From positions 1 to 64,000 of IMG/VR virus record IMGVR_UViG_3300034071_000338: a stretch of 64,000 nucleotides of DNA; one strand, given 5' to 3'. A program made the translations under genes and the position numbers. This document shows positions 529 through 63,874 of this stretch, piece by piece. Position 1 is the first letter of the stretch, and each line of letters opens with the position of its first letter. This DNA comes from a virus. The notes beneath the pieces are model-generated. The model made no database searches, was not told the DNA's origin, and worked only from the letters and a program-made list of their open reading frames with translations.

Positions 529-536
529 AAATAAAT

Positions 537-567
537 TTGGTAATGTCTAATTTATGTCGTATCTTCG
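537..567 (+). promoter_or_regulatory. Probable Bacteroidota-type promoter
   Basis: TTG at 537-539, 20 bp, then TATCTTCG at 560-567, one mismatch from TAnnTTTG. It lies 68 bp upstream of the glutamine amidotransferase start, so the transcript would carry the hairpin at 596-611 in its leader. Confidence 0.45.
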
Positions 568-595: not shown

Positions 596-611
596 GTGTC
601 TTCAAAGACAC
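596..611 (+). repeat. 16-bp palindrome GTGTCTTCAAAGACAC, copy 1
   Basis: Exact copy of the dispersed palindrome, 24 bp before the start codon at 635. Flanking GGG and CCC can extend the hairpin. No hammerhead core follows this copy. Confidence 0.9.
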
Positions 612-634: not shown

Positions 635-1753
635 ATGTGTGTAATTATTATCAAGCAGAAGGGCAAGAAAGTCCCTCAGGAGGTTGCAAAGACCTCCGCA
701 AGAATCAATCCTCACGGGTTGGGTGTAGTGTGGTTGGATACGTTCGAGGTAACGTATCACAAATCAGCAGAGTACAAGGTACTCGATACGGCAAGACCAT
801 TCATTGCTCACTTTAGATATGCGACCATTGGTGCTGTCAACAAAGAGAACACGCATCCATTCAGATGTGGTAGCAACAAGAACGAGTGGTTGATGATGAA
901 CGGGACGATAAGAGAGTTGGGCAACCACAAGAAGAGTGACTCAAAAGTATTGGCCGAGAACTTGGGTGAGATACCACGCCATCAGTGGAAGAAAGAGTTG
1001 GAGCGTTACGAGTGTAGGTTCGTGTCAGTTAACACGCATAGCAGAACGTATCAGATGTACAACAAAGAGTTGTGGGTTCAGAGAGATGGGGTTTGGTACA
1101 GCAAGGACAACGTCCTTGAGGATAACCTGATAGCGGTGTATGGTACGTTGAAGAAGGGGTATAGTAACTACAACCATTACTTGACGAGTTCAAAGTATGT
1201 GGGTAAGGGTAAGACCAAAGACAAGTATCCCTTGGTAGTTAGTGGACTACCTTATTTGATTGAGGAGCGTGGACAAGGGTTCAATGTGGAGGTGGATGTG
1301 TTCAAGGTGAGTGCGTCAGTACTTGCTAACTTGGATAGGTTGGAGGGTCACCCGACTTGGTATAGACGTAAGCAGATTGACATTCAGATGAAAGGCAAGG
1401 TGCTTAAGTGTTGGGTTTATTTCAACCTGAGAGAGAGGGCGAATGGTCAGACATTGCATAGTACGTACACGCAAGTACCGAGCAGACTTAAGTGGTACGA
1501 GGAGGAGGACGAGAAGGAGAGTGCAAAGGAGGTAAGTATCTTTAGTCAGATGGGTTACGAGGAGCCGAAGAGTGCGAGGCTGATAGATATTTTAGAGGAC
1601 GAGTGTGACGATTGCGAGTTCGACATAACAAATGAGAAGCCCGTATGTGTGAATTGCTTTCACGATTTGGAGCACGATATGTTTGCGAACTACCATTGTA
1701 GCAGTTGCGATGAGTGGTTCACCGAGTCTGATGTGATTATGTTCAGGAACTAA
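635..1753 (+). CDS. Class II glutamine amidotransferase - gamma-glutamylcyclotransferase fusion with zinc-ribbon tail
   Basis: I start at ATG 635, not the upstream GTG at 596, because this puts Cys at position 2 (MCVIIIK), the nucleophile freed by Met removal in class II (Ntn) amidotransferases, and because the ATCAAATCAA leader lies just before it. Residues 1-150 show FRYATIGAVNKENTHPF (60-76) and a MNGTI motif, matching the HxRxAT, HPF and NG signatures. Residues about 167-270 read VYGTLKKG ... LDRLEGHPTWYRR, the AIG2/gamma-glutamylcyclotransferase fold. The last 50 residues hold CxxC pairs (CDDC, CVNC, CSSC). Expected roles are releasing ammonia from glutamine and cleaving gamma-glutamyl bonds. 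An amidoligase is encoded at 61470-62339, and such enzymes recur as partners. A hammerhead ribozyme follows the stop by 35 bases. Confidence 0.82.
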   Translation: MCVIIIKQKGKKVPQEVAKTSARINPHGLGVVWLDTFEVTYHKSAEYKVLDTARPFIAHFRYATIGAVNKENTHPFRCGSNKNEWLMMNGTIRELGNHKKSDSKVLAENLGEIPRHQWKKELERYECRFVSVNTHSRTYQMYNKELWVQRDGVWYSKDNVLEDNLIAVYGTLKKGYSNYNHYLTSSKYVGKGKTKDKYPLVVSGLPYLIEERGQGFNVEVDVFKVSASVLANLDRLEGHPTWYRRKQIDIQMKGKVLKCWVYFNLRERANGQTLHSTYTQVPSRLKWYEEEDEKESAKEVSIFSQMGYEEPKSARLIDILEDECDDCEFDITNEKPVCVNCFHDLEHDMFANYHCSSCDEWFTESDVIMFRN

Positions 1754-1762
1754 CCTGACTCA

Positions 1763-1788
1763 GGGTGGTGTCTTCAAAGACACTACCC
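1763..1788 (+). repeat. Perfect hairpin on palindrome copy 2, abutting ribozyme 1
   Basis: GGGTG + GTGTCTTCAAAGACAC (1768-1783) + TACCC gives a 10-bp stem with one G-U pair. Its 3' edge touches the first base of ribozyme stem III at 1789. It would form the 3' end structure of the upstream message after self-cleavage. Confidence 0.85.
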
Positions 1789-1839
1789 TCCGTAGTAGAG
1801 TGAGTACTCTACCTGATGAGCTCAAAAGAGCGAAACGGA
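1789..1839 (+). ncRNA. Type III hammerhead ribozyme, HHR1
   Basis: All elements are present in order. Stem III is UCCGU (1789-1793) with ACGGA (1835-1839). The cleavage base is A1794, in a GUA triplet. Stem I is GUAGAG/CUCUAC (1795-1800, 1807-1812) with loop UGAGUA. The core is CUGAUGA (1813-1819). Stem II is GCUC/GAGC with loop AAAA, followed by GAAA (1832-1835). Cleavage is predicted between 1794 and 1795. It sits 35 nt after the amidotransferase stop and 52 nt before the next ATG, with no promoter visible between, so it probably acts inside a polycistronic RNA. Confidence 0.9.
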
Positions 1840-1840
1840 A

Positions 1841-1862
1841 ACACGTGCACTTGTGCACGTGT
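1841..1862 (+). repeat. Perfect 10-bp hairpin downstream of ribozyme 1
   Basis: ACACGTGCAC, TT, GTGCACGTGT: a fully self-complementary hairpin directly after the ribozyme in the leader of the gene at 1892. After cleavage it would stay on the downstream RNA. No U-tract follows, so a terminator is unlikely. Confidence 0.8.
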
Positions 1863-1891
1863 CCCCTCAGTAACCGATAAATATAATCAAG

Positions 1892-10094: not shown

Positions 10095-11551
10095 CAAACA
10101 TAATAGAGAAGACGTCAGGTGCCACAAACAAATCAATGTGGGACTATTGCGAAGCGCTTAAGCGTGTGATACTGCAGAAGACAGAGGTTAAGGTTGGTAG
10201 AGGCAAGAACATTGAGACGCTTGAGATATATAAATACAAGAACAATGCTGATACTGTTGAAAAAATTATTAATAGCTGCGAGCATTATAAAAAATTACAC
10301 GAGATGGAAAGTGCGCAAGGATTTAACTATAGAGATTATCAGATAGAGATTATCGAGAAGGGTTATCAGATACTTTCCAAGTATGGCTTTTTGTATTTGG
10401 CAATGGAGGTTCGTACCGGCAAGACCCTGACAAGTCTCGGTATAGCTGAGCGTGTGCACGCAAAGAATGTGCTGTTCATTACCAAGAAGAAAGCGCTGAG
10501 CAGTATATCAGACGACTACTCAACGCTTAGCCCTTCTTATAATATGCAAGTAATCAACTACGAAAGCCTACACACCGTAATGGATGAGAAGTATTGGGAT
10601 TTGATTATATGCGATGAGGCACACGGAATGGGAGCATTTCCTAAACCAAGTGGTCGTGCTGAATTGGTTGCTGAAGTGATTAAAAAATATAGACCAATGG
10701 TAATACTATTGAGTGGTACACCAACGCCTGAAAGTTATTCTCAGATGTACCATCAGGTCTATGCCATACCTAATAACCCATTCGAAGAGTTTAGAAACTT
10801 CTACCGCTTCTGCGATAAGTATGTAGCAGTCAAGCAGCGTAAGATTAATGGACTACTTGTAAAAGATTATAGCAATGGCTTAGAGACCATCCTCAAGGAG
10901 ATGGAGCCGTACACTATTAACTACACACAGCAAGAGGCAGGCTTTATGACAGAGACCACAGAGGAGATACTTGAGGTAGAGATGAAGGAGTCTACCTATA
11001 AACTTATCAAAAAGTTAAAGAAGGACTTAGTTGTAGAGGGTAAAGAAGAGTTAATTTTAGCAGACACACCGGTTAAGTTGATGATGAAGGTGCATCAGTT
11101 GTGCAGTGGAACGATTAAGTTTGAGAGTGGAAGCTCAATGATACTCGACCTTAGCAAGGCTGAGTTCATCAAAGAGCAGTTTGATGGGTGCAAGATTGGA
11201 ATCTTCTACAAATTTAAAGAAGAGTACAATGCACTCAAACAAGTATTTGGCGATGACTTAACCTCTGAGTTAAGTGTCTTTGAAGACACCGGTAAATCTA
11301 TAGCTTTACAAATCGTATCCGGACGTGAAGGTATCTCTTTACAAAAAGCAGAGTACTTGGTTTACTATAACATAGACTTCAGTGCTACGAGTTATTGGCA
11401 GAGCAAAGACCGAATGACCACAAAGGAACGCCTCGAGAATCAAGTGTATTGGATTTTTGCAAAGGGTGGTATTGAATATGACATCTATAAGGCCGTTACA
11501 AAGAAGAAAGACTACACACTAAAACATTTCGAGAAGACGTTAATAGAATAA
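10091..11551 (+). CDS. SNF2-type (SF2) DNA helicase/translocase
   Basis: This 486-residue protein shows SF2 motifs in order: Walker A MEVRTGKTLTS (about residues 103-113), DEAH box ICDEAHG (172-178), LLSGTPTP motif III (206-213), and the motif V/VI region SGREGISLQKAEYLVYYN ... YWQSKDRMTTKER (about 413-447). The EVRTGKT Walker A and the compact second lobe resemble phage SNF2-family helicases thought to remodel forks or displace proteins. It overlaps the upstream gene by 4 bases. A copy of the 16-bp palindrome lies in its coding sequence. Confidence 0.85.
   Translation: MTNIIEKTSGATNKSMWDYCEALKRVILQKTEVKVGRGKNIETLEIYKYKNNADTVEKIINSCEHYKKLHEMESAQGFNYRDYQIEIIEKGYQILSKYGFLYLAMEVRTGKTLTSLGIAERVHAKNVLFITKKKALSSISDDYSTLSPSYNMQVINYESLHTVMDEKYWDLIICDEAHGMGAFPKPSGRAELVAEVIKKYRPMVILLSGTPTPESYSQMYHQVYAIPNNPFEEFRNFYRFCDKYVAVKQRKINGLLVKDYSNGLETILKEMEPYTINYTQQEAGFMTETTEEILEVEMKESTYKLIKKLKKDLVVEGKEELILADTPVKLMMKVHQLCSGTIKFESGSSMILDLSKAEFIKEQFDGCKIGIFYKFKEEYNALKQVFGDDLTSELSVFEDTGKSIALQIVSGREGISLQKAEYLVYYNIDFSATSYWQSKDRMTTKERLENQVYWIFAKGGIEYDIYKAVTKKKDYTLKHFEKTLIE
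11274..11289 (-). repeat. 16-bp palindrome, copy 4 (inside helicase gene)
   Basis: GTGTCTTTGAAGACAC on the plus strand, the reverse complement of the leader copies. It encodes residues within SVFEDTG of the helicase. An exact 16-mer maintained within coding DNA is unlikely by chance given the other ten copies. Confidence 0.88.
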
Positions 11552-14427: not shown

Positions 14428-14830
14428 AACAGAGGTAGACTTAATCAGAGAGAAGAAAGCAATTGAATTATTCGTAAGCATATTTGATGGGTCATACAAG
14501 AAGCTCGACCCACAAGATGTAGACTATAAAATATTTGACAAGGATAAGAACTTAATCGCCTATGCTGAGGTTAAAGGACGCATTAGAACAATGAAGACAG
14601 CATATCCCCTTCCGGTATCAGCAAGAAAATTAGTGAAGTTAATTGATAAAAGATTAGCACCCGTATTAATATGGGCGTGTGAGGACGGTATCATCTATGG
14701 CAAAGCAAACAAACTACAAGGACAAATCAAGTGGGGAGGTCGCCCTCCCCGTGATGGTTCATTTAGTGATTCCGAGATGATGGTCTACTTTGACAATCAG
14801 AAGGAGCTTAAGTACATTAGGTACGTTTAG
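14417..14830 (+). CDS. Putative PD-(D/E)XK-like nuclease (137 aa)
   Basis: Residues about 37-60 (DVDYKIFDKDKNLIAYAEVKGR) resemble the D-x(n)-E-x-K nuclease core, and a basic helix follows (PVSARKLVKLIDKR). It ends the plus-strand early arm; its TAG stop overlaps the stop of the opposing 2,858-codon gene by four bases, with no terminator between. The nuclease assignment rests on one motif and could be wrong. Confidence 0.6.
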   Translation: MTFETEVDLIREKKAIELFVSIFDGSYKKLDPQDVDYKIFDKDKNLIAYAEVKGRIRTMKTAYPLPVSARKLVKLIDKRLAPVLIWACEDGIIYGKANKLQGQIKWGGRPPRDGSFSDSEMMVYFDNQKELKYIRYV

Positions 14831-17800
14831 TACAGTTTCTGTAATCCTCCTTTACCCTTTTTAGGCTTAGGAGTATAATCGTACATCTCATCTTTCATTG
14901 CTCTTTCTACACTATCCTTCTCTCTCTTAATTAATTTTTCCGCTTGTTTTGCATCATAGTCAGGAGCGTCAGGACCGAATGTTCTATACCAAAGGTCATA
15001 ATCATAGCGCTTCATATCCTCTTGGTTTTGAAATCCTTGAAGTTTTTCTTCCTCAGCTTTCTTTTTATCTCCTTTAGTTCTATCAGCTTTCTCAAGGTCT
15101 TTGTAAAGGTCTTTCATTACAGCTTTACGAATGTCTTTGTATAAAGGAACAAGACCTAAGTTTCCTAATACCTCAAGAGGAATTCTTACATTAAGTTCTT
15201 TTTCTCTTCTCGCAATAGCATCTTCTTTTACCTTTTCTTTCTCTGTCACTTTTTTAACAATAAAAGCAGCAGTATTTAACGCAGGAGTATAAGCACCTCC
15301 CATATTCATAAGTAATTTACCTAAGTCTGTTTGTTTGCTATCGTCCCTTGGTATTAATGTGTAAGCAATACCATCTTTGTATGGGTCGTAATCTCCTTCT
15401 CTTAAAAAGTCAAGGTACTTTTCATTTGCTTCTTCTATACCATAGTTTAATACATTCTTAACAGCGTTACCGAAATCTCTTCCGATTAATAATGAACTAA
15501 ATGCAGAAGCGAATGCTTGACCAAGTTTCTGCATAAATGATTTTTCTGTTTCAGGCTCTTCATCATCAAAGAATAATCCCATAAGACCCGTGCCCAACAT
15601 TTGAAAAATTAATCCATATAACACCATACGTGTAGCAACTGCTCCAAGAACTGCACCACCTTGTTGTTTAGTTAATGAGCCATTACCAATCGCTGCCATA
15701 ATAGCTGTACGTGCTGTAACATATTCAAATATCAAAAACTTTGTCATAAAGTTATTCATATTATTAAATGCTCTTAATGCAAGTTTTTGGTCAGGCTTTA
15801 CAGTTCCTTTTAAAATACCCATAAATGGATTGTCAGTTGCTCCCACCATTACAGACCTTTCATCTGCAAGTTCAGTAGCTTTATCAAGAGCCTCTTTGTT
15901 GGCTTCCATATACGCTTCGTCATTTGCTGCAATCTTTTCAAAGTCTACCTCTTTTCCTGTGATATTTTCAAATTGATTAGCAAATGAACCAAACCACATA
16001 GGTCTCATTATAACTTTATCAGGAGTCGAAATCAAAGCATCAGCTTGAAGCTCAACTGCATTAACATATTTTTTACCTGACCTATTCCAAATTTGTTGAA
16101 TTTTATTTTTAACAGGATTCTTTGATACAGCACCTTTAATTCCACTTGCTTGACTTAATATTGAAGTATCAACTAATCTTCCTGATAATGTATCTGTAGG
16201 GAAAATTCTATTAGTCTGCTTGCTTTTTAAGTTTTCCATTATAGTAGGAGCATCTGAAGACATAATAATTCCTCTATATTTTACACCTGATGCAAGAGCT
16301 TTAGGGTCGCTAATTACTGCAAAACCAATGTTTGAACTTAATTCGGATACAAACCTGCTTGTACCTGCAAGTACTGCACGGTATCCTTGCTTATTTATGT
16401 AATCAAGTGCTATGTCTAATGTTGAATCCTGAGTAAATGTATTTGTCAATAAATTATCTACCGTCTCTTCAAATGCAGCATTGATAGCGTTTATTATTTG
16501 TCTTTGCTCTTTAGGTATTCTTCCTTTACTTTCTAAATTAGCAATAGTACCATTGATAGTTTTACGAGCTGTACGTATTGGCTTCGTCAAATTAAAATCC
16601 ATCAATACAAACTTAGCACCACGCTGAGCACTTGCGAATACGTCAAAGTTTAATGGAGACACCTTGCCTGTTCTTGCAATCAAAGACTTTGCTTTAGTAG
16701 ATGGCCTCATTGCGTTGTTATATTCAGTAACAAATGCACTTCCTGATGTTAAATCGCTTGGTTGAAATTCGTGTAGTACGTTTAAGTGAACATAGTTATT
16801 CAACGGGTCAATTCTATCGCCACGAATAATCGCTGCAGTAAACTCAGCTTGCTCTCTTAAAGATTCGTTTATACCACGAATATCATTAATGGCATCTTTC
16901 TCAGCTTGATTAAATGATTTGTATAACTTTTCATTATCAATATTTCCATCAGTAGAAAAATCTTTAAGTATTTGTTGCAACATTTCAGCATCACGTTCTC
17001 CAAATCGAGACTTGCCTGCATCAATGTGCTTAATGGTAGCTTTTAAATAATCAGCAGCAGGATTTACTTCCTTGTTTCCTTTGTTTGATTCGTACTCAAG
17101 CTGAATCATATATGTCATCATCTTAAACTTAGACATAGTCACTGCATTAGGTTCAAGCCCAAGCGATTTAGCTACTTTTTCTTCAGCTTTCTCTAATATA
17201 TTTTGAACTCTATTTAATTGAGTTTTAAATGCAGCAACCGCTTTTGCAGGCTCACTGAATAATGAATTAAATATATCCTTTGTTTTAAAGTTTCCAAATA
17301 ATTGGTCAATATAAAATAAAGGGTTTCTTCTAATCATCTCTAAGACACCTGTTCTTCCTTGCATTGCAACTTCAGCTTTTACTTTAGAATACAATTGAGA
17401 AAACTTATACATTTTACTTTGCTCAACGGCTTTAGTTAAGACCTTGTCAGTATTAAGTCCATTTAATTTCTCTAACATTATCTCTCCGTAGTGAGGTAAG
17501 TAGTTGTTATTTATATTATCAATAACCTTAAGCAAGTTCTTTAACTCAGTGTTGGTTAAACCATCTACTGCATCAGTTTTAACAACCCTACTTAACTCCT
17601 TAATTGTATCTCTTTCATACTTAGTAGAAAGACCTGAGCCATCAATAGTAGATTTTTTTACTGCATCAGTTAGTTCTTTTCTTTCTGCTGCTAACTCCTC
17701 TTCGGTAAGCTCAGTTTCTTCAACTTGAGGAGCAATATCATCCTTATACTTACGCATAGTCTCTGCTTCCTTATCGTCAATCTCTTTCTCATCAAGCATT

Positions 17801-20800
17801 TTCTTAACTGATGCTGCGTAGTCTAACTCATTATCCTTATATACCTTGTTCTCTGAATTATTGAATCTATCAGCTAACTCATCAGCTTTTGATTGTTCGT
17901 TGTCAATCTCATCAAGGATAGCTTGAACATCTTTAGTTACTACAGACTTCTCATCAAGTGTAAGCACTGCTTGTCTTGCGCCAAACATATCAACCAATTC
18001 TAAGTAACGACCAAGGAACTGATTAGGTATAAGTGTTGGGTTAATAGAAAATAATCTATTCAATGGTCCTACTAATCCATCAGCGATACCAATCTTAGTA
18101 ACAATGTTCTTCTTAGCCATCTTTAACTTGCTCTTAGCTACGTCAATCTTATCAGCATACTCTGCGTTTGCAAACACCTTAGCCATATAGTCAACAAAGT
18201 TTGACACTGAAATCTCGTTTAGCATATTCACCTTGCCAAATCTTGATACAATATTAGCTGCTTGGATAGATGTAATCTTTCCTTTTGATGCCATCTCTCT
18301 AATGTCCTTAGCCAATTCCTTAGCTGCATCTCTTGATAAGTCTCTGATTTGCTTGATGACAAGCATCTTCTCTTCTCTTGAGATATTGGTAATGTCTTTT
18401 AATGCGCCAAGCACACGTCCAATTGACACAGCACGCTTAGCTCCAACACCCATTTTAAATCTACCTTCACGCTCCATTACTTTCTTCTGAGCATCTGTAG
18501 CTCGACTATACACCTCAGAGTTTCTAATTAAAGTATCTAAGTTTGATATTATCTTGGCATCAGCTATACCTCTTCTTTTTTGACGAGTAATTAACTCATC
18601 AACCTTTGTCATTAATTCAGTGTAGCCCGGCAACTTATCTTCAGTAACTTTTTCTCTTTCATTGAAAAAGTCTGTTACCGTTTTTTCTATATTATTTCTC
18701 TTAGCTTCTCCTAATACGTTTACTATTTCTTTTATGGCTTCTTTTAATGCGACAGAAAATTCTACTCCTCTATCCATTAACCTACCAATCTCAACAACTG
18801 ACTTAGCTATTAATCTCTTAAATTCATCTGCGCTTAATCCTGCTTTTTGAGTTCCTTCAGGTAGCGTAGGAGTAAACCAAGATGGCAATTCAAAGTTATC
18901 TATATCTTCAGCTAACTTTAATGCTTTGGTTTCAAACTCACCTTTAGCTTTAGTCTTAGCTTTTTTAGCTGCAACTTTAGCTTTTTCTTTAGCCTTTTTA
19001 TTTTGCTCTTTGTCAAACTCTTTCTTCTTAATCTTATTATAACTATCAGCAACTGCTTGCTTAGCTTCTCCTAATGTTTCAAATCCATCAAAGCCAATCT
19101 CATTACCATCAATATCCTCTGCGGTAAATGAGAACATTTTATCTTCATCAGTAAGTTTTGTTATAGTTCCAATAGGGTCACCATCTGCATTACGTGCTTC
19201 AACAGTAAGTGATGATATGTATGTTACAGTTCTTCCACTTTCAGTTTCTTTTTCATCTTCAAGATAGTCAATAGCATTATCCTTAGTGAACGCATCAGTC
19301 TTAACTTCAGACGCTTGCACAGGGACAAACTGCTCTTCTTCTTCTATTACAAGAGTAGCTTCTGCTTGAACAGGCTTATAGTCTATTAAAGATTGCGGAG
19401 CCTTACCATTGTTACCTGCATCCCATTGTGACTTATCAGCAGCATCTACATTGTTTTTAAATGCTTCTACATCATTCATAAAGGATTCGGCAAGTGTAGA
19501 ATTTGGATTAGTAAATGCATCATAATATAAGTCGCTTAATCTTGCGGCCTCATCTCTTAAATTATCATCTACATTAGTATCTCTTTGAATCTCATAAAAA
19601 TAATGACCAAGCCCATCAGGGATATTCCAACCAAGACGAGCACGTACTGCATCTAACTTTTGTTTAGCTGTAGCTTTTTGTTTCTCATCTCCGGTAAATC
19701 CTTTTAAGCCATCTTTAGCTAAATAGGCTTCATTGGTAATCACTTGAACTTCTGCGATTGTACCATTAGATGTACGAATTTCAATAAGTCTTTTTGGATA
19801 ACCTAAGTCTGTAGTCTCGGTAATTCTTCTTAATTCTTTGTCGCCCGGATATTTCTCATCAATTGTTTTAAATACTTTATCAGCATTAGCTTCAGTATCT
19901 ACTACAATATTTACACGTGCGCCATCACCAAGTTTTTCGGTGAATGCATTATACCATCTGATAGCTTTAACAGATGCACGTTCAGGGCGTTTAATTGGGA
20001 ATGGGGATATGGATGCATCAACTTCAGCAATGGCATCTTGTGCAATGCTTTCTACTTCGGCCTTAGCGTCTTCGTAAAGTTTTTTATTTGTTTCAAATGT
20101 ACGCTGCACTGCAGGCTGTACTACTTTATTTAACTCGTTAAATCGAGTTTGTTCTTCAGGAGATAACTTTTTTCCTTCTTTTTGTAAATCAATTTCTTTT
20201 TGACGCAAGTCAGCAAGTTCAACTGCAAGTGCTTCTACTTTTGTGGTTGATTCTTTGAACGATTTAAGAACGTCACTTCTATCGAATTGTCTTGTTGGGT
20301 CTGAGGTTCCTTCATTTTTGGCTCCTTGGTAAGAAGATTTTTTGATTCTAACCGTTGGTTTAACTTTGACATTAGGTCCGAGTACATCAGCCGTTGCTTT
20401 TTCGGCTGCGATTGACTTTGAGTCAAGGTCTCTTGTTCGTTCTTCATATTGTTCATCTTCTGTTAAATTTTGTTGGTCAGTATCTTCAAAGAATTTAATT
20501 ATAGATACTTTAATCTCGTTATTATTAATGTTGAATGCCTCAACACCATTCTTTTCAAGTTCAACTGACAGGTCTGTAACTTGTTCGTCAGTTATTGGTT
20601 CATCAAAGGTATAAATAATTTGTGGATAATGCATCAAATTATTTTCATCAAATTCAGTAAGAGGTATATCTCTCTTTCCACTAAACACATCTGACTCATA
20701 TTCAGAGTCTGTTTCTAATATAAATGCATCTTGAGAATACTTCTCAGCAAAGTCAAATAATAACTTACTAACTGCTTCAGTATTAGCTTGTGGACTAATT

Positions 20801-23403
20801 GATAGAATCATATTAAATGATGGCTCAAATGAACCATTCCATAAGCCACGCTTAGGGTCGCTAAACTTAACAGCTACACCATCAACTTTTGCTACTTCAT
20901 CAATAATATCTTGCTTAGCATCGTTTAATATTTGATTTTCAGCTTCCTTTATCTTAGCAAGAACTTTAGGGTCTTTCTTTTTAGCGTATTGCTTAACAAA
21001 CTTGTCATAGTTCAATGACAACTTCTTAATCCTTTTAGTTACAGGCGTAGCTTCACGTACTGTAGCCGGAGTAATTAATACAGATATATCTCTAACTAAC
21101 TTAGGAGCTTGTGTCTTTAAAGACACTTTTTGTTCTGCTTTTAATGTTTCTAACTCACTATTTATCTCATCAATACGAGCACGTGTTTTTAATTGAATTG
21201 GAGAATTAGGCATTTGCTTTAACGCTTTAGAGGTCAAAGACACCTTTTCTTTTTCAAGTTTATTTATTTTTTCAATTACTTCTTGCGTCCCGATTTCAGG
21301 AGTGACCTCTTCGGTCCTTGTGGTAACGACTTGAGGTCCTTGGTCTCCTTCGACCACTTGCTGCAATCCCACTTCGGGTTGTTCTGTGCGTAGCACGCCT
21401 TCATCTGTTGTTTGTTTTTGAATGGCATAATCTTTTGCTTGTTTACCGGTTAATGTATATGAATATCCTTCTCCTATTTTTCCTGATATTTTTTTTCCTA
21501 ATGGAAGACCAAATATCATTTTTCTACCCTCGAACTCAATGCCTTCTTTTTTTACGGCTATATCTCTGAATTGTTCAGGTACTTCTTCAAGTGTTTTTAC
21601 ATTGAAAGTAACATTTTCATTATCATCTAATGAAGATATTTCTTCAGGAATACCTAATGTCACTTCTTCCACTTGTGGCTTAGACTCCATTATAATCTGT
21701 TGTATTTGATTGTTGAGGTCAGCAATCTCTTGCTTTTCTCTTGCTACAAGTACATCATCTTTATTCTGAATGTCAGTTTTTAATTGGTCTCTTTGTCTAA
21801 GTAAAGTAGCAATCTGAGCCTTCTCTGCATTGGTAACCTTTAAGTCTTTTACAGCATTTGAAACCTGCTGTACCTTATCGAATACATACAATGATTGCTT
21901 TGCTTCATCTTCTGAAATCTCACCATCCTTTACTTTCTTAGTTAAGTTCTTAGATAATATATCTCTTGACTTATTAGTATTAGCTATTTGGATTTGTTCT
22001 GCTGTAATAGGAGCATCTTTTGATACATTAAATACTTGGTCTAATTTTGTATCAGTGTCTTTTAATACGGCATTTATCTCTTCCTTAGACTTGTATGTCT
22101 CAACAAGATTAGTTACCTTATCCTTTGCTTTCATTGCATTGATAGGAGCTGTGAATACCACACCACTGCCTGCACCTGTTACAAATGCATCAGCAACACC
22201 TTCAAACGTAGGCTTATTACTAAGCACATTCTGAGTGATTTGAGTAGCTGCTTCTTCAATACCTTCACCCAATAGACCAATAGGAGCACCATACTTTGTC
22301 AATGCACCTTTATAAGCCTGAACTAAACCATCTCTAAAAATATTCTTTCCTACTTCTACACCTTCTTTCTTAACAATGTCTTTATAAACCTGACCAATTG
22401 TACCTGTACCAATTGCACTAAATACAGTCTCAGCCGCAGACATACCTAATGCCTTTACGGTCTTTTCAATCTCAGGCATATCAGGATTTTCTTCGCCTAA
22501 TTGCTCTCTATTTTGTTCAAGGAATCCGGCAGTACTAATTGCTGCTAACTCAGCAGGAGCAAGCGTAGCTCCTCCCATCATCATAGCTATACTTACAGGA
22601 GCAGACTCTACAATGCTACTTCCAAGTAATTCAAATGCATCATTATAGTTGCCCTTCTGTATATTGTCTACAATACCTGAGCTTTCGTATCTTTCTTTAT
22701 TAAATTTAGCAGTAACCTCTTGTAATCTTTTTTCTTCTTCGTTTAACTTGTTTAATACGGGATTGCTTATGCCAAACTGCTTTTTAAATGTATCAGCGTT
22801 AGCTGCAATATCCCAACCTGTAGCCCAAGCCAATGCATTCTGAGGTATAGATGCAATATTGATAACCGTCTCAGGTATAGATGCAACCATCTTCTCCAAT
22901 GAGGTAAGACCTGATAATGCTCTTGTGCCTATGTTTTTTAAGTAAACGTTTTCTTCCTCAGGCATTTCAAGCGCTCCTAAATTCTTAAGTAATTTTTCTT
23001 TTTTAGGCGGAGCCATCTCAGGTATAACATTCGTTATAGTTTCAGGAAGAGGCGTAACACCTGTTGGCGTTGCAAATCCTGTCTCTGCTGCTACTTGTCC
23101 TTCTCTAAGAAATTTAGGAAGCGGTTTTGACGAAACCAAAGAAGTATCTTCCGAAGGTAATTCCGTAGTACCTTTTTTTTTTAATTCAGGCTGAGCACTA
23201 AATCCAAACTCAGGGAACTTGCTAAACACCTCATCTTCCGTAGCATACTTGCCACTATTAGAAGTAGCAACAAAGTCTCTTAAAGCCTGAACATCATATC
23301 CTTTTAATTCAGGAAACTTAGAAAGTAACGTAGCTTCGTCAGCATATTTACCACTATTTGATGTAGCAACAAAATCTCTTAACGCTTGTTTTAAATCCGA
23401 CAT
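14827..23403 (-). CDS. Giant virion-associated polyvalent/ejection protein (2,858 aa)
   Basis: This is the last gene of the virion operon and the largest in the window. The N-terminus holds two tandem copies of a unit containing ALRDFVATSNSGKY (residues about 7-73). A Gly/Ala-rich hydrophobic region (about 265-420) could insert in membranes. Residues about 1110-1270 (RINIVVD..., LGYPKRLIEIRTSNG, IAEVQVITNEAY, GLGHYFYEIQRD) resemble a RelA/SpoT-type nucleotidyltransferase fold, but catalytic function is unproven. A Lys/Ala stretch (about 1455-1490) precedes long helical regions. Two hydrophobic spans lie near 2555-2610, then a basic tail. It fits the large, multi-domain internal proteins injected by podoviruses. 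No RNA polymerase metal-binding motif was seen. Confidence 0.72.
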   Translation of the reverse strand: MSDLKQALRDFVATSNSGKYADEATLLSKFPELKGYDVQALRDFVATSNSGKYATEDEVFSKFPEFGFSAQPELKKKGTTELPSEDTSLVSSKPLPKFLREGQVAAETGFATPTGVTPLPETITNVIPEMAPPKKEKLLKNLGALEMPEEENVYLKNIGTRALSGLTSLEKMVASIPETVINIASIPQNALAWATGWDIAANADTFKKQFGISNPVLNKLNEEEKRLQEVTAKFNKERYESSGIVDNIQKGNYNDAFELLGSSIVESAPVSIAMMMGGATLAPAELAAISTAGFLEQNREQLGEENPDMPEIEKTVKALGMSAAETVFSAIGTGTIGQVYKDIVKKEGVEVGKNIFRDGLVQAYKGALTKYGAPIGLLGEGIEEAATQITQNVLSNKPTFEGVADAFVTGAGSGVVFTAPINAMKAKDKVTNLVETYKSKEEINAVLKDTDTKLDQVFNVSKDAPITAEQIQIANTNKSRDILSKNLTKKVKDGEISEDEAKQSLYVFDKVQQVSNAVKDLKVTNAEKAQIATLLRQRDQLKTDIQNKDDVLVAREKQEIADLNNQIQQIIMESKPQVEEVTLGIPEEISSLDDNENVTFNVKTLEEVPEQFRDIAVKKEGIEFEGRKMIFGLPLGKKISGKIGEGYSYTLTGKQAKDYAIQKQTTDEGVLRTEQPEVGLQQVVEGDQGPQVVTTRTEEVTPEIGTQEVIEKINKLEKEKVSLTSKALKQMPNSPIQLKTRARIDEINSELETLKAEQKVSLKTQAPKLVRDISVLITPATVREATPVTKRIKKLSLNYDKFVKQYAKKKDPKVLAKIKEAENQILNDAKQDIIDEVAKVDGVAVKFSDPKRGLWNGSFEPSFNMILSISPQANTEAVSKLLFDFAEKYSQDAFILETDSEYESDVFSGKRDIPLTEFDENNLMHYPQIIYTFDEPITDEQVTDLSVELEKNGVEAFNINNNEIKVSIIKFFEDTDQQNLTEDEQYEERTRDLDSKSIAAEKATADVLGPNVKVKPTVRIKKSSYQGAKNEGTSDPTRQFDRSDVLKSFKESTTKVEALAVELADLRQKEIDLQKEGKKLSPEEQTRFNELNKVVQPAVQRTFETNKKLYEDAKAEVESIAQDAIAEVDASISPFPIKRPERASVKAIRWYNAFTEKLGDGARVNIVVDTEANADKVFKTIDEKYPGDKELRRITETTDLGYPKRLIEIRTSNGTIAEVQVITNEAYLAKDGLKGFTGDEKQKATAKQKLDAVRARLGWNIPDGLGHYFYEIQRDTNVDDNLRDEAARLSDLYYDAFTNPNSTLAESFMNDVEAFKNNVDAADKSQWDAGNNGKAPQSLIDYKPVQAEATLVIEEEEQFVPVQASEVKTDAFTKDNAIDYLEDEKETESGRTVTYISSLTVEARNADGDPIGTITKLTDEDKMFSFTAEDIDGNEIGFDGFETLGEAKQAVADSYNKIKKKEFDKEQNKKAKEKAKVAAKKAKTKAKGEFETKALKLAEDIDNFELPSWFTPTLPEGTQKAGLSADEFKRLIAKSVVEIGRLMDRGVEFSVALKEAIKEIVNVLGEAKRNNIEKTVTDFFNEREKVTEDKLPGYTELMTKVDELITRQKRRGIADAKIISNLDTLIRNSEVYSRATDAQKKVMEREGRFKMGVGAKRAVSIGRVLGALKDITNISREEKMLVIKQIRDLSRDAAKELAKDIREMASKGKITSIQAANIVSRFGKVNMLNEISVSNFVDYMAKVFANAEYADKIDVAKSKLKMAKKNIVTKIGIADGLVGPLNRLFSINPTLIPNQFLGRYLELVDMFGARQAVLTLDEKSVVTKDVQAILDEIDNEQSKADELADRFNNSENKVYKDNELDYAASVKKMLDEKEIDDKEAETMRKYKDDIAPQVEETELTEEELAAERKELTDAVKKSTIDGSGLSTKYERDTIKELSRVVKTDAVDGLTNTELKNLLKVIDNINNNYLPHYGEIMLEKLNGLNTDKVLTKAVEQSKMYKFSQLYSKVKAEVAMQGRTGVLEMIRRNPLFYIDQLFGNFKTKDIFNSLFSEPAKAVAAFKTQLNRVQNILEKAEEKVAKSLGLEPNAVTMSKFKMMTYMIQLEYESNKGNKEVNPAADYLKATIKHIDAGKSRFGERDAEMLQQILKDFSTDGNIDNEKLYKSFNQAEKDAINDIRGINESLREQAEFTAAIIRGDRIDPLNNYVHLNVLHEFQPSDLTSGSAFVTEYNNAMRPSTKAKSLIARTGKVSPLNFDVFASAQRGAKFVLMDFNLTKPIRTARKTINGTIANLESKGRIPKEQRQIINAINAAFEETVDNLLTNTFTQDSTLDIALDYINKQGYRAVLAGTSRFVSELSSNIGFAVISDPKALASGVKYRGIIMSSDAPTIMENLKSKQTNRIFPTDTLSGRLVDTSILSQASGIKGAVSKNPVKNKIQQIWNRSGKKYVNAVELQADALISTPDKVIMRPMWFGSFANQFENITGKEVDFEKIAANDEAYMEANKEALDKATELADERSVMVGATDNPFMGILKGTVKPDQKLALRAFNNMNNFMTKFLIFEYVTARTAIMAAIGNGSLTKQQGGAVLGAVATRMVLYGLIFQMLGTGLMGLFFDDEEPETEKSFMQKLGQAFASAFSSLLIGRDFGNAVKNVLNYGIEEANEKYLDFLREGDYDPYKDGIAYTLIPRDDSKQTDLGKLLMNMGGAYTPALNTAAFIVKKVTEKEKVKEDAIARREKELNVRIPLEVLGNLGLVPLYKDIRKAVMKDLYKDLEKADRTKGDKKKAEEEKLQGFQNQEDMKRYDYDLWYRTFGPDAPDYDAKQAEKLIKREKDSVERAMKDEMYDYTPKPKKGKGGLQKLY
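21111..21126. repeat. 16-bp palindrome, copy 5 (perfect GTGTCTTTAAAGACAC)
   Basis: A fully symmetric version inside the giant protein gene, coding KVSLKT on the minus strand. The centre is TA rather than CA/TG. A half-site-like AAAGACAC also lies about 110 bp away near 21235. Confidence 0.88.
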
Positions 23404-35068: not shown

Positions 35069-35102
35069 AAAAAAGGGAGAGTGTCTTTAAAGACACCCTC
35101 CC
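35069..35102 (-). terminator. Rho-independent terminator after the capsid gene, built on palindrome copy 6
   Basis: The perfect palindrome GTGTCTTTAAAGACAC (35081-35096) is extended by GGGAG/CTCCC with one mismatch, and six Ts follow on the minus strand (35069-35074). Here the dispersed repeat has plainly been used as a terminator stem. Confidence 0.88.
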
Positions 35103-35119
35103 GGTATATTTACCACCTA

Positions 35120-36538
35120 TTATCCATAACGGAATAATACGAAGTTGTTTGCACCCAAAGTACATACGCAACGCTCAGACAAGAAGTTTACCTCCATTGC
35201 ATCCAAGTCGCTTGTGGCAGCACCACCGGCAGAACCTGTAATCCAAGTCTTGTATCTTCTATCTTCTGCTTCAGAAGCACGGTATCTTACGTGTAAGAAA
35301 GGACGCTTAGCGTTCTTACCCATAATTTGGTCGTACACTGAAGTAGAACCTGCAGGAACCATCAAACCTGTGATAGTACCTGTTGCAGTACCTGCTGTTT
35401 GGTTTAAACCACCACGCATTGTTGGGTCGTTTAGGTATTTCCAATCAGACTTGTAGAAGTCATAACCTCTACGGAATCCTGTGAAACCTAAGTTTAACGC
35501 CATATCAACATCGTTATCGAAAAGACCGAATGAAGCTGATTGAGCAACACCACCTGAAGTGTAGCCGTTCAATGTAGCTAACATATTGTCAATATCGAAG
35601 CTCAATCCACGATTTACGAATACTACGTTCTCTTCGATAGCACCTTGCTTATCTAAACGAGAAACGATAGAATCCCAATCAGAAAGAGTTGTTGGAGTAC
35701 CACCACCCCAAACGTTACCACGATTGTTTACTACGTAGAAGATACCCTCAGAACCAATGAAACCTGCAGTTGCCGCACCTGAAGATGCTGCAGCAGGAAC
35801 TGCTTCAATCATTGAAGTCTCTAAGTAATCTTCAAAACGTAAACGAGTCTCGTGCTCTGATTTCAAATACCACAAGTATCCTGTAGCACCGTTCTCAGTA
35901 GTCACTTCAACCCAACCGATTTGAGCCATATCAGAACCGTTAACCGCATACTTATCTTTGATGATAATAGGGTTGTTAGAGAAGATGCTATCTTCAGATT
36001 CTAATGAACCAATCATTCCGTTAGTTCCTTTCTTGAACTCAGAACCGTAAATGAATACAGTACATTGAGTAGAAACTGCGAATGCTTGACCTGCAGTCTC
36101 GTAGTAAGCTACTGTGAAAGTAGTTGCTGAAGGAACTGCTGTAACGATTGCTTTGTTGAAAACACCTGAAGTGTTATTCTGAATCATAACAGTTTGTCCA
36201 ACACGGATTGCGATGTAAGTTACACCACTATCAGCTACAGTGAAAGTTGCGGTTGCCGCACCTGCTGCTGCTGCTGAAGTAATATTAGTGTACTTAATGT
36301 GTAAACGTCCTTGTTCTGCCCATTTAACTTGGTCTGAATTAGACGGCATCTCTGCTCCTACCATACGTAAGAAAGATGCAATTGTTCTATTACCATAACG
36401 CTCAAATTCCTTCTCATAAGTATCAGGAAGATACTGATTCAAGAAATTAAAGTTGGTAATGTAGTTAGTTTGTAAGGCCACCTGCTCAGCACTCGGCTGC
36501 AACGCAAAGGTAGGGTTACTTAATAATGTACCTGCCAT
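35120..36538 (-). CDS. Major capsid protein (HK97-like, crAss-type)
   Basis: 472 residues, placed directly after the scaffold gene. The N-terminus (NYITNFNFLNQYLPDTYEKEFERYGNRTIASFLRMVGAEMPSNSDQVKWAEQGRLHIKY) resembles the capsid proteins of crAss-like phages. A beta insertion follows (ATATFTVADSGVTYIAIRVGQTVMI), then helical regions and a C-terminal RYRASEAEDRRYKTWITGSAGG. Bounded by a strong terminator, as expected for a highly expressed gene. Function is inferred from size, position and pattern. Confidence 0.78.
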   Translation of the reverse strand: MAGTLLSNPTFALQPSAEQVALQTNYITNFNFLNQYLPDTYEKEFERYGNRTIASFLRMVGAEMPSNSDQVKWAEQGRLHIKYTNITSAAAAGAATATFTVADSGVTYIAIRVGQTVMIQNNTSGVFNKAIVTAVPSATTFTVAYYETAGQAFAVSTQCTVFIYGSEFKKGTNGMIGSLESEDSIFSNNPIIIKDKYAVNGSDMAQIGWVEVTTENGATGYLWYLKSEHETRLRFEDYLETSMIEAVPAAASSGAATAGFIGSEGIFYVVNNRGNVWGGGTPTTLSDWDSIVSRLDKQGAIEENVVFVNRGLSFDIDNMLATLNGYTSGGVAQSASFGLFDNDVDMALNLGFTGFRRGYDFYKSDWKYLNDPTMRGGLNQTAGTATGTITGLMVPAGSTSVYDQIMGKNAKRPFLHVRYRASEAEDRRYKTWITGSAGGAATSDLDAMEVNFLSERCVCTLGANNFVLFRYG

Positions 36539-60618: not shown

Positions 60619-60763
60619 TAAACGAGAGAGAAAGAGACAAGAGAGAGGCTTTTAGACCTCTCCCGTACATTGCAAGTACAAACTTTGTACAATATCAGGC
60701 AACCTCAAGCGCCTTATTGTATTGAGTTTCCATATATCAGATAAAAAAAAGATTAAAAAAATT

Positions 60764-60792
60764 TTGTAGTATTCAGAATTGAACTATATTTG
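60764..60792 (+). promoter_or_regulatory. Bacteroidota-type promoter for the early operon
   Basis: TTG at 60764-60766, 18-bp spacer, TATATTTG at 60785-60792. Transcription should start near 60799, 33 bp before the ATG at 60832. Confidence 0.72.
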
Positions 60793-62339: not shown

Positions 62340-62346
62340 CAACAAC

Positions 62347-62370
62347 GGGAGTGTCTTCAAAGACACTCCC
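62347..62370 (+). repeat. Perfect hairpin on palindrome copy 10, abutting ribozyme 2
   Basis: GGGA + GTGTCTTCAAAGACAC (62351-62366) + TCCC, a fully complementary stem. Its last base is adjacent to stem III of HHR2 at 62371. No T-run follows, so it is not a plain terminator. Confidence 0.87.
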
Positions 62371-62421
62371 TCCGTAGCGGAGTGAGTGCTCCGCCTGACG
62401 AGGCCTAAAGGCCGAAACGGA
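62371..62421 (+). ncRNA. Type III hammerhead ribozyme, HHR2
   Basis: Stem III UCCGU/ACGGA (62371-62375, 62417-62421); cleavage base A62376; stem I GCGGAG/CUCCGC with loop UGAGUG; core CUGACGA (62395-62401, the variable position being C); stem II GGCC/GGCC with loop UAAA; GAAA 62414-62417. Compared with HHR1, stem I changes are compensatory (U-A to C-G and A-U to G-C). Cleavage is predicted between 62376 and 62377, separating the amidoligase message from the gene at 62468. A further hairpin around CCGAAGG follows. Confidence 0.9.
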
Positions 62422-62467
62422 ATTTTAAAACCGAAGGTTTAAAACCCCTTCAAAAATCAAAATCAAA

Positions 62468-62593
62468 ATGGGACAATCAATCACAATCTTAGAATTATTA
62501 GCTATCGGCTTAGTGACCATCGTGTTATACGCCTTTGTTAAAACTTTAATTCAAACGTGGGGACGCAATGCGGACACACATTCAAAAAACTAA
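62468..62593 (+). CDS. Small membrane protein (41 aa)
   Basis: Reads MGQSITILELLAIGLVTIVLY, one membrane span (about 7-29), and ends in a polar tail (TWGRNADTHSKN). ATG follows CAAAAATCAAAATCAAA. It is the first gene after HHR2 and overlaps the possible longer start of the next gene. Confidence 0.55.
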   Translation: MGQSITILELLAIGLVTIVLYAFVKTLIQTWGRNADTHSKN

Positions 62594-62603
62594 AACCAAT
62601 CCA

Positions 62604-63173
62604 ATGAGAAAAATCACAAGAGAAATCGTGGACGCCTTTCAAAACAGCCGTTCACTCACAATCGGCAACAGCCGTACCAATGGCGAGAGCCTATGGCTAT
62701 TCGACAATAAGATAGCCGAAATCAGGAGGGATGGCTTATGGATATGTAATGGTGGTTGGAATAGCGCAACCACAAAGGAGAGACTCAATGGCTTATCAGG
62801 TGTGCACATTGTACAACGTGGTGGCAATTGGTTCTTAAATTTCAGGCAATGGGATGGTCGATGGGTTAACGTAGATGCGTGGAATCAGGAAGCAGAATCG
62901 GTGCCTGAGGAAATTGTTCAGGAGCCTGAGTTCGATGTTACCAGCGAATGGATGGAGCAAGGGTATAGCAGACCCGTTTATTCAATCTACCATACGTTGG
63001 TGGAGTCAAACCTTGAGGAGGTGGAGCAGATGCTAAACGGGGAAGGGATACCAACCAAAAGGATGGAGTCAGATACTGAGGGTGCGTATCAACCAAACTA
63101 CTTCATCGTGGTGCGACCTGAGGATGTAGTAAGAGCGAGTTCAATATTGTGTACTAATTATTCACTTATATAA
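62604..63173 (+). CDS. Two-part protein with DUF2007-like C-terminus (189 aa)
   Basis: I choose ATG 62604, after the previous stop; an in-frame ATG at 62568 would add 12 residues overlapping that gene. The N-terminal half has aromatic beta motifs (SLWLFDNKIAEIRRDGLWICNGGW). The C-terminal 65 residues (PVYSIYHTLVESNLEEVEQMLNGEGIPTKRMES ... YFIVVRPEDVVRASSIL) follow the DUF2007-like regulatory fold. Function unknown. Confidence 0.62.
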   Translation: MRKITREIVDAFQNSRSLTIGNSRTNGESLWLFDNKIAEIRRDGLWICNGGWNSATTKERLNGLSGVHIVQRGGNWFLNFRQWDGRWVNVDAWNQEAESVPEEIVQEPEFDVTSEWMEQGYSRPVYSIYHTLVESNLEEVEQMLNGEGIPTKRMESDTEGAYQPNYFIVVRPEDVVRASSILCTNYSLI

Positions 63174-63184
63174 ATCAAATCAAA

Positions 63185-63445
63185 ATGAAATTCGATTATT
63201 TCTTAGACCAAAAAGTTACAACGTGGTATAGAACACGTTTTGAAATCAATGCAAACAATCAGGAGGAGGCTGATGAAAAAGCAAAGGAGTTTATAAGAGT
63301 CGGCAATCATTCAGATATTGAGTGGGAACAAGTAGATGGTGTTATTGATGTAATGACTCCTGAAATAAATGACAATCAGGCTACGGAAGAGTTGTTTCAA
63401 AGTAATGGGGAGGATGAAAAAATTTGGGACAATTTAAATGATTAA
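63185..63445 (+). CDS. Hypothetical early protein (86 aa)
   Basis: ATG follows ATAAATCAAATCAAA. The N-terminal KVTTWYRTRFEINANNQEEADEKAKEF resembles small phage proteins whose beta strands precede a helix. The end is acidic (GEDEKIWDNLND). HHR3 lies 64 bases after the stop. Function unknown. Confidence 0.62.
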   Translation: MKFDYFLDQKVTTWYRTRFEINANNQEEADEKAKEFIRVGNHSDIEWEQVDGVIDVMTPEINDNQATEELFQSNGEDEKIWDNLND

Positions 63446-63466
63446 AAGTGAGGGTGTACTTCGAGC

Positions 63467-63498
63467 GTATGCGAGTGTCTTCAAAGACACAAGCGTAC
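63467..63498 (+). repeat. Hairpin on palindrome copy 11, upstream of ribozyme 3
   Basis: GTATGC-GA-GTGTC-TTCAAA-GACAC-AA-GCGTAC: the palindrome (63475-63490) is extended through a GA/AA internal loop by a 6-bp stem with one G-U. Eleven bases separate it from stem III of HHR3. Confidence 0.75.
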
Positions 63499-63509
63499 AC
63501 TCAAGACAC

Positions 63510-63561
63510 TCCGTCCCTGAGTGTGTTGCTCGGGCTGATGAGTCCTAAAGGACGAAACGGA
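63510..63561 (+). ncRNA. Type III hammerhead ribozyme, HHR3
   Basis: Stem III UCCGU/ACGGA (63510-63514, 63557-63561); cleavage base C63515, giving the canonical GUC triplet; stem I CCUGAG/CUCGGG with loop UGUGUUG; core CUGAUGA (63535-63541); stem II GUCC/GGAC with loop UAAA; GAAA 63554-63557. Stems I and II differ from HHR1 and HHR2 but still pair, whereas stem III and core are the same. It ends 22 bases before the ATG at 63584. Confidence 0.9.
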
Positions 63562-63583
63562 AACCATTTTAAATCTAATCAAG

Positions 63584-63874
63584 ATGACAAAAGACAGCCA
63601 ACAAATTATGGAGGAGTTGTTCGTGGTGTACTACGAGCAATGCCCAACAGCACGAATCAAGTACGCAATCTATGACCCGACCAAGACGCAAGGGCACATT
63701 GTATTGCAAGATGAGTGGATGGAGATTATTTATTTTGCGGGAGCGGACTCGGTTAAGTTCACAATCGTGAGAGAAGATGAATGTTATTTCTTTGACAACT
63801 ACGTGGATGCGGTTAAGTATTCAAATATGCCCATCGATGAGTTCAACGAGTATGTTTTATCAATCACCCTTTAA
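63584..63874 (+). CDS. Hypothetical early protein (96 aa)
   Basis: First gene after HHR3; ATG follows AAATCTAATCAAG. Mixed alpha/beta with no catalytic motif (KYAIYDPTKTQGHIVLQDEWMEIIYFAGADSVKFTIV). The next gene has the same leader and similar first codons (ATGACAAAAGA), suggesting a duplicated start region. Confidence 0.65.
   Translation: MTKDSQQIMEELFVVYYEQCPTARIKYAIYDPTKTQGHIVLQDEWMEIIYFAGADSVKFTIVREDECYFFDNYVDAVKYSNMPIDEFNEYVLSITL

Follow-up and report, generated by a model that had tools for sequence, protein, structure and literature searches.

Clusters of hammerhead ribozymes flank single phage genes or short blocks of genes, and the splitting of long phage transcripts was proposed for them in 2011 (Perreault, PMC3088659). 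Triple hammerhead arrays have been tested and cleave in vitro, one of them also in E. coli, and in the haloviruses HF1/HF2, whose hammerhead HHphage precedes an early gene by 13 nt, an early transcript has its 5′ end within 3 nt of the cleavage site (PMC3088659). The text of PMC3088659 mentions no upstream hairpin and does not set type I apart from type III, and our literature searches, with subscription journals outside their coverage, turned up no account of hairpins that precede phage hammerheads.

We analyzed positions 1 to 64,000 (hereafter the window) of the IMG/VR virus record IMGVR_UViG_3300034071_000338, which contain three hammerheads, HHR1 to HHR3. They resemble the 2011 clusters in that several same-strand hammerheads flank genes of one phage operon, but those clusters are in prophages, whereas the window belongs to a podophage group of Bacteroidota. 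The HHphage ribozyme of HF1/HF2 differs in being a single site in an archaeal virus, with no hairpin module described. In the engineered insulator RiboJ, a hammerhead and a hairpin separate neighbouring RNA parts, and the hairpin is downstream, where it frees the ribosome site; unlike this arrangement, the hairpin in the window lies upstream of the ribozyme and would cap the 5′ product.

Three type III hammerheads in the early gene block

The record comprises 64,147 bases, the last 127 of which (3522-3648 in L004) are the same as the first 127 (1-127 in the window). The assembly is therefore circular, at about 64,020 bases, and HHR2, HHR3 and HHR1 lie in that order in one contiguous early block that runs across the window ends (plus strand, from 60832 across the joined ends to 14830). 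The source phage is of Bacteroidota type and belongs to a podophage group; by terminase, its closest named relatives are a Manatee Spring podophage (79%) and Flavobacterium phages of the elemo group (45%), together with Cellulophaga, Maribacter and Tenacibaculum phages. The candidate early promoter P1, which we take to be an exact promoter of the Bacteroidota type, is found just before the first early gene, a place conserved in five related contigs, and the chance expectation for the exact motif is 1.8 matches per strand. It had been claimed from the sequence that there is "no promoter between". This holds for HHR2 and HHR3, neither of which has a recognisable promoter to itself. Between HHR3 and HHR1, however, there is a conserved promoter-like sequence (P2), from which HHR1 could be reached.

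Table 1 Features of the hammerhead modules, palindrome copies and candidate promoters in the window
Feature	Position	Strand	Remarks
HHR1, type III hammerhead	1789..1839	+	predicted cleavage 1794/1795 (GUA); 71.3 bits
HHR2, type III hammerhead	62371..62421	+	predicted cleavage 62376/62377 (GUA); 67.4 bits
HHR3, type III hammerhead	63510..63561	+	predicted cleavage 63515/63516 (GUC); 65.4 bits
11-bp hairpin GGGUGGUGUCU-UCAA-AGACACUACCC	1763..1788	+	directly before HHR1; fold z -5.3
10-bp hairpin GGGAGUGUCU-UCAA-AGACACUCCC	62347..62370	+	0 nt from HHR2 stem III; fold z -5.2 over 62345-62376
Long hairpin before HHR3	63452..63509	+	built on palindrome 63475-63490; outer stem can compete with stem III
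Leader 3′ of HHR1	1840..1891	+	followed by gene 1892-2218
A-rich leader 3′ of HHR2	62422..62467	+	followed by 41-aa ORF (ATG 62468) and gene 62568-63173
Leader 3′ of HHR3	63562..63583	+	followed by gene 63584-63874
Palindrome GTGTCTTCAAAGACAC without hammerhead	596..611	+	in leader of gene with ATG, 635-1753
Palindrome as stem of intrinsic-terminator-like hairpin (GGGAGGGTGTCTTTAAAGACACTCTCCCTTTTTT)	35081..35096	-	after structural gene 35120-36538
Palindrome copy 160 nt before P1	60603..60618		conserved in relatives
P1, candidate early promoter TTTG-N18-TATATTTG	60763..60792	+	site conserved in relatives; upstream of block with HHR2 and HHR3
P2, candidate promoter TTTG-N20-TATCTTCG	536..567	+	conserved position, 60 nt before palindrome 596; between HHR3 and HHR1

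All three hammerheads contain CUGANGA, GAAA and the U16.1-A15.1 pair, with A, A and C at H17 in HHR1, HHR2 and HHR3, and each has three uninterrupted stems, of which stems I and II are closed by loops and stem III is open. The pattern CTGANGA-N(6,36)-GAAACGGA, which covers the core and stem III, matches these three sites only in the window, where dinucleotide shuffles give an expectation of 0. The Rfam model RF00008 (Hammerhead_3), with which they share the core, three stems, cleavage triplet and conserved loop bases, scored them at 41.4, 38.7 and 37.2 bits (E = 5.9e-7, 3.4e-6 and 1.3e-5). A default Rfam scan is silent on all three because these scores fall under the curated cut-off of 48.5 bits, which is a curation choice and no biological feature. 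The scores are low because loop II has 4 nt and loop I is longer, and the window hammerheads also depart from RF00008 in having a hairpin fused directly upstream. A phage covariance model made from 33 hammerheads of other viral contigs, with the window excluded, gave 65-71 bits for HHR1 to HHR3 (E = 4e-17 to 2e-15), and its next match reached 9.4 bits. HHR1 to HHR3 are complete type III hammerheads, predicted from their sequences to self-cleave. The sequence-only reading had described them as having all required bases and lying 32-65 nt past a stop codon, and its coordinates and distances proved correct.

That reading had also placed a hairpin ahead of each ribozyme, and one is present at all three sites. 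The predicted fold of the HHR1 and HHR2 regions is exactly hairpin plus hammerhead, whereas the hairpin at HHR3 is predicted to compete with the first bases of stem III. We rejected intrinsic termination at the three modules, as the U run is absent, stem III lies directly 3′ of the hairpin, and terminator-like hairpins account for 3 of the 192 oriented palindromes described below. The leader 3′ of HHR1 contains a second perfect hairpin (ACACGTGCA..TGCACGTGT, 1842-1863, plus strand). The product of the gene between the palindrome at 596 and HHR1 (635-1753, plus strand) combines an N-terminus resembling class II glutamine amidotransferases with a gamma-glutamyl cyclotransferase domain, and in many relatives the junction of this gene and the hairpin is conserved.

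Upstream hairpins in type III and type I phage hammerheads

Type III hammerheads were collected from IMG/VR with patterns for the core and stem III that ignored the flanks, and were filtered for stems and deduplicated. The set also took in hammerheads on contigs fetched for the palindrome, and the palindrome-free subset was counted separately. The collection patterns restricted the stem sequences, and that for type I fixed part of stem II. Among the matches listed, a strong hairpin ended just before stem III in 50 of 66 type III hammerheads, compared with 22/243 decoys, 22/248 shifted sites and 19/330 shuffles under the same criterion (9%, 9% and 6%). A strong upstream hairpin accompanied 53 of 69 type III hammerheads (77%) but 25 of 161 type I hammerheads (16%) among the matches listed (Fisher p = 5e-19, to be read as indicative because related sequences remain after deduplication). 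When one hammerhead per contig was counted, the figures were 45/56 for type III and 14/100 for type I, and type III hammerheads without any repeat palindrome had the hairpin in 33 of 46 cases, again among the matches listed. The strong hairpin was absent in 16 of the 69 type III matches listed, for example in elemoA, a cultured phage of Flavobacterium. Different phage groups have hairpins of unrelated sequence, and one contig (L067) carries four type III hammerheads with four different hairpins. On bacterial chromosomes, where the patterns gave at least 120 matches, none of the loci examined contained a structurally complete type III hammerhead.

The geometry of the type III modules is tight. 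The gap between hairpin and stem III is 0 nt in most cases, and the tail from the hairpin to the cleavage site has a median of 7 nt (range 5-13, among the matches listed). The stop codon lies a median of 9 nt before the hairpin and the ATG a median of 23 nt after the ribozyme, and both are within 100 nt in 52 of 66 type III matches listed versus 8 of 137 viral decoys. Type I hammerheads occupy the same type of junction, with stop codon and ATG within 100 nt in 113 of 161 matches listed, the ATG a median of 21 nt after the ribozyme and the stop codon at a median of -1 nt. The position of the hairpin, its dependence on ribozyme topology and the gene-junction geometry are computed directly from these sets. 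Type I phage hammerheads (e.g., in L032, L582, L591, L593, and L605) begin directly at the stop codon of the preceding gene or overlap it, so that stem I may be blocked by a terminating ribosome for as long as the ribosome stays there. A role of the hairpin as a "bumper" for ribosomes between stop codon and ribozyme was rejected, as the overlap in type I indicates that spacing is not generally needed.

The hairpin-ribozyme-leader module had been put forward as new. The ribozymes are known, and transcript splitting by hammerheads was already proposed in 2011, but the rule that a hairpin precedes type III hammerheads and is missing from most of type I is apparently unreported. Nor is the module special to this phage, since unrelated hairpins play the same part in other phages.

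Type I and type II cleavage leaves an upstream product that ends in the stem III hairpin, whereas type III cleavage would leave a bare tail. On this view type III alone would require an added hairpin, as the type I product is already closed off by stem III, and the simplest reading is that selection is for a hairpin-ended upstream message. We consider it likely that HHR1 to HHR3 are active type III hammerheads that cut the long early transcript at gene junctions, with the hairpin serving chiefly as a 3′-end cap. Because the cut falls directly after the added hairpin, the upstream message would end in this hairpin and a 6-nt tail (UCCGUA or UCCGUC, with a 2′,3′-cyclic phosphate), and the hairpin would mainly cap the 3′ end against exonucleases. 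The downstream message would begin with a 5′-OH and with stems I and II of the ribozyme in folded form, and a short leader rich in A would connect these to the start codon. It is from sequence that we infer cleavage in infected cells, protection from decay and a benefit of uncoupling neighbouring messages. The splitting of early RNA into messages with hairpin-protected 3′ ends, which the sequence-only reading had suggested, is the best-supported account, given the contrast of type III with type I and the tight geometry. Lambda-like antitermination sites were rejected, as cleavage would separate the polymerase from the hairpin.

A hairpin that stacks coaxially on the open stem III, or that insulates the ribozyme against RNA upstream of it, would equally be placed directly before stem III, and the 0-nt gap of most cases and the clean folding of HHR1 and HHR2 as hairpin plus ribozyme are consistent with a hairpin that mainly aids ribozyme folding, its effect on the 3′ end being a by-product. 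We regard this as unlikely, however, since type I hammerheads face upstream RNA to the same extent and yet seldom have such a hairpin (16%, among the matches listed), and the hairpin of HHR3 would hinder stem III; stacking on stem III in particular may still play a part. A main purpose at the 5′ end of the downstream message, in the form of a defined 5′-OH leader headed by the ribozyme stems as in RiboJ, with the hairpin tidying the leftover, would fit the narrow distance to the start codon in both types and the HF1/HF2 transcript that begins near the cleavage site, but it predicts neither the upstream hairpin nor its dependence on topology and appears improbable.

Two cultured Bacteroidota phages are usable for the mapping of transcript ends. 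Phage elemoA (MT497065.1) has hammerheads on the minus strand at about 18491-18544 and 16752, one of type III and one of type I, and the Cellulophaga phage phi18:3 (KC821620.1) has one type I hammerhead near 21929-21952, between gp050 and gp049.

A genome-specific palindrome in the hairpin core

The hairpin core in the window phage group is a 16-nt near-palindrome, which occurs in 11 copies in the window versus 0.53 expected. Three of the 11 adjoin a hammerhead. The sequence-only reading had overlooked the palindrome as a genome-wide, genome-specific repeat that is mostly found without a hammerhead. Among 192 oriented palindromes, 61 adjoin a type III hammerhead under a relaxed criterion and 12 form stem III of a type I hammerhead (13 were counted, one of which, in L221, looks miscalled); the rest include 74 at hammerhead-free gene junctions, 11 in coding sequences and 3 that are terminator-like. 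In L032, L093, and L109, the palindrome that forms stem III in type I hammerheads also recurs as the hairpin before the type III hammerhead. Since most palindromes of the group are at hammerhead-free junctions, the palindrome has a further role. Window copies inside coding sequences are located at 11274 (helicase), 21111 (2858-aa protein), and 42141 (terminase), and a 3′-end role gives no account of these.

The Manatee Spring relative MW202828.1 (L243) has no hammerhead but carries, between 43745 and 55154, 14 identical copies of a changed version, GTGTCGTTAACGACAC, all of them in the early block, the majority in the interval from a stop codon to the ATG that follows and some in genes. Contig L141 (IMGVR_UViG_3300044723_002720) has 14 palindromes in 15 kb, mostly just 5′ of early genes and without hammerheads. 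Palindromes were also seen beside tRNA-like sequences in L185 (10147), L089 (7368), and L202 (minus strand, 4331); at the counterpart of these sites in the window, 5729, ARAGORN made no tRNA call. Between genomes the palindrome occurs in the versions GTGTCT, GTGTCG, GTGTCC, GTCCGT, and GTCTGT, and the stem is uniform within each contig. This concerted change of all copies suggests a trans-acting recogniser, which may read RNA or DNA.

In palindromes linked to hammerheads, pairing continues into the flanks, with 74 Watson-Crick, 26 G.U and 1 A.C pairs, an excess of G.U over A.C that flank base preferences could explain in part. The loop of 28 such palindromes is UCAA or UUAA and never the reverse complement form UUGA, and the loop orientation is CA in 22 and TG in 0 of those adjoining hammerheads, versus CA in 56 and TG in 14 elsewhere. 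Both the G.U bias and the loop orientation point to selection on a hairpin in the sense RNA. It is possible, although somewhat doubtful, that the palindrome marks early phage RNAs by its sequence, for a co-evolving phage factor to read. It would be located at the 3′ ends that type III cleavage produces, in the form of stem III at those from type I cleavage, and now and then at ends due to termination, and would act there as a private 3′ tag that protects phage messages or sets them apart from host RNA. The 3′ stem-loop of eukaryotic histone mRNA, with 16 nt (6 bp and 4 nt), is also found at a 3′ end made by cleavage, which in that case is protein-directed; the comparison concerns how the two would work and implies no homology.

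The change of all copies together between genomes, and the copies at P1 (-160) and P2 and inside genes, would also be expected of a DNA operator for a phage regulator, which hammerheads adjoin by chance and whose hairpin is incidental. The sense-strand loop bias and the 26:1 ratio of G.U to A.C in the flanks point instead to RNA, and phages free of the palindrome keep hairpins before type III hammerheads (33/46, among the matches listed), so that this account is very improbable, while an operator role may hold additionally. A strictly palindromic DNA centre (YR step) was dropped from consideration, as UCCA, UACA, and UGUA are among the loops of L093, L032, and L109. A virion RNA polymerase acting at N4-like hairpin promoters was likewise rejected, as the 2858-aa protein has no polymerase match and the palindrome comes after recognisable host-type promoters and not instead of them. 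This protein (14827-23403, minus strand) has a weak match to the Tas1 effector structure 6ox6 (E = 6e-6, residues 1103-1301).

Selection on ribozyme structure and the proposed splitting of phage messages

In an ungapped alignment of 36 hammerheads, all 540 of 540 pair cells are standard and both sides change in 12 of 15 pairs. Double changes number 175, three times the 54 found in shuffles, and sliding the partners destroys the signal. Window-type hammerheads are under selection for pairing, as the sequence-only reading had proposed from the three copies. Of the loop bases, T13 and A39 are invariant and G14 and A37 are present in at least 90%. The conserved bases of loops I and II are those expected for the hammerhead tertiary contact. 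Records that were picked solely for carrying the palindrome contain hammerheads in six of seven cases. That HHR1 to HHR3 are inactive relics or chance motifs, which the Rfam scores under the gathering cut-off might suggest, is exceedingly improbable in view of the extreme covariation and core conservation, phage-model E values of 2e-15 or better, and the one to four hammerheads that this model finds in 19 of 20 records, mostly contigs of ~60 kb.

With its own upstream hairpin in type III and without one in type I, phage hammerhead cleavage would in both types yield an upstream message that ends in a hairpin, and the hairpin rule makes the transcript-splitting role directly testable. The module may also serve, as it stands, as a natural blueprint for separating the genes of an operon. 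The recurrence of stop codon, hairpin, ribozyme and start codon in many unrelated phages suggests a general way to split long messages into shorter ones with protected ends.
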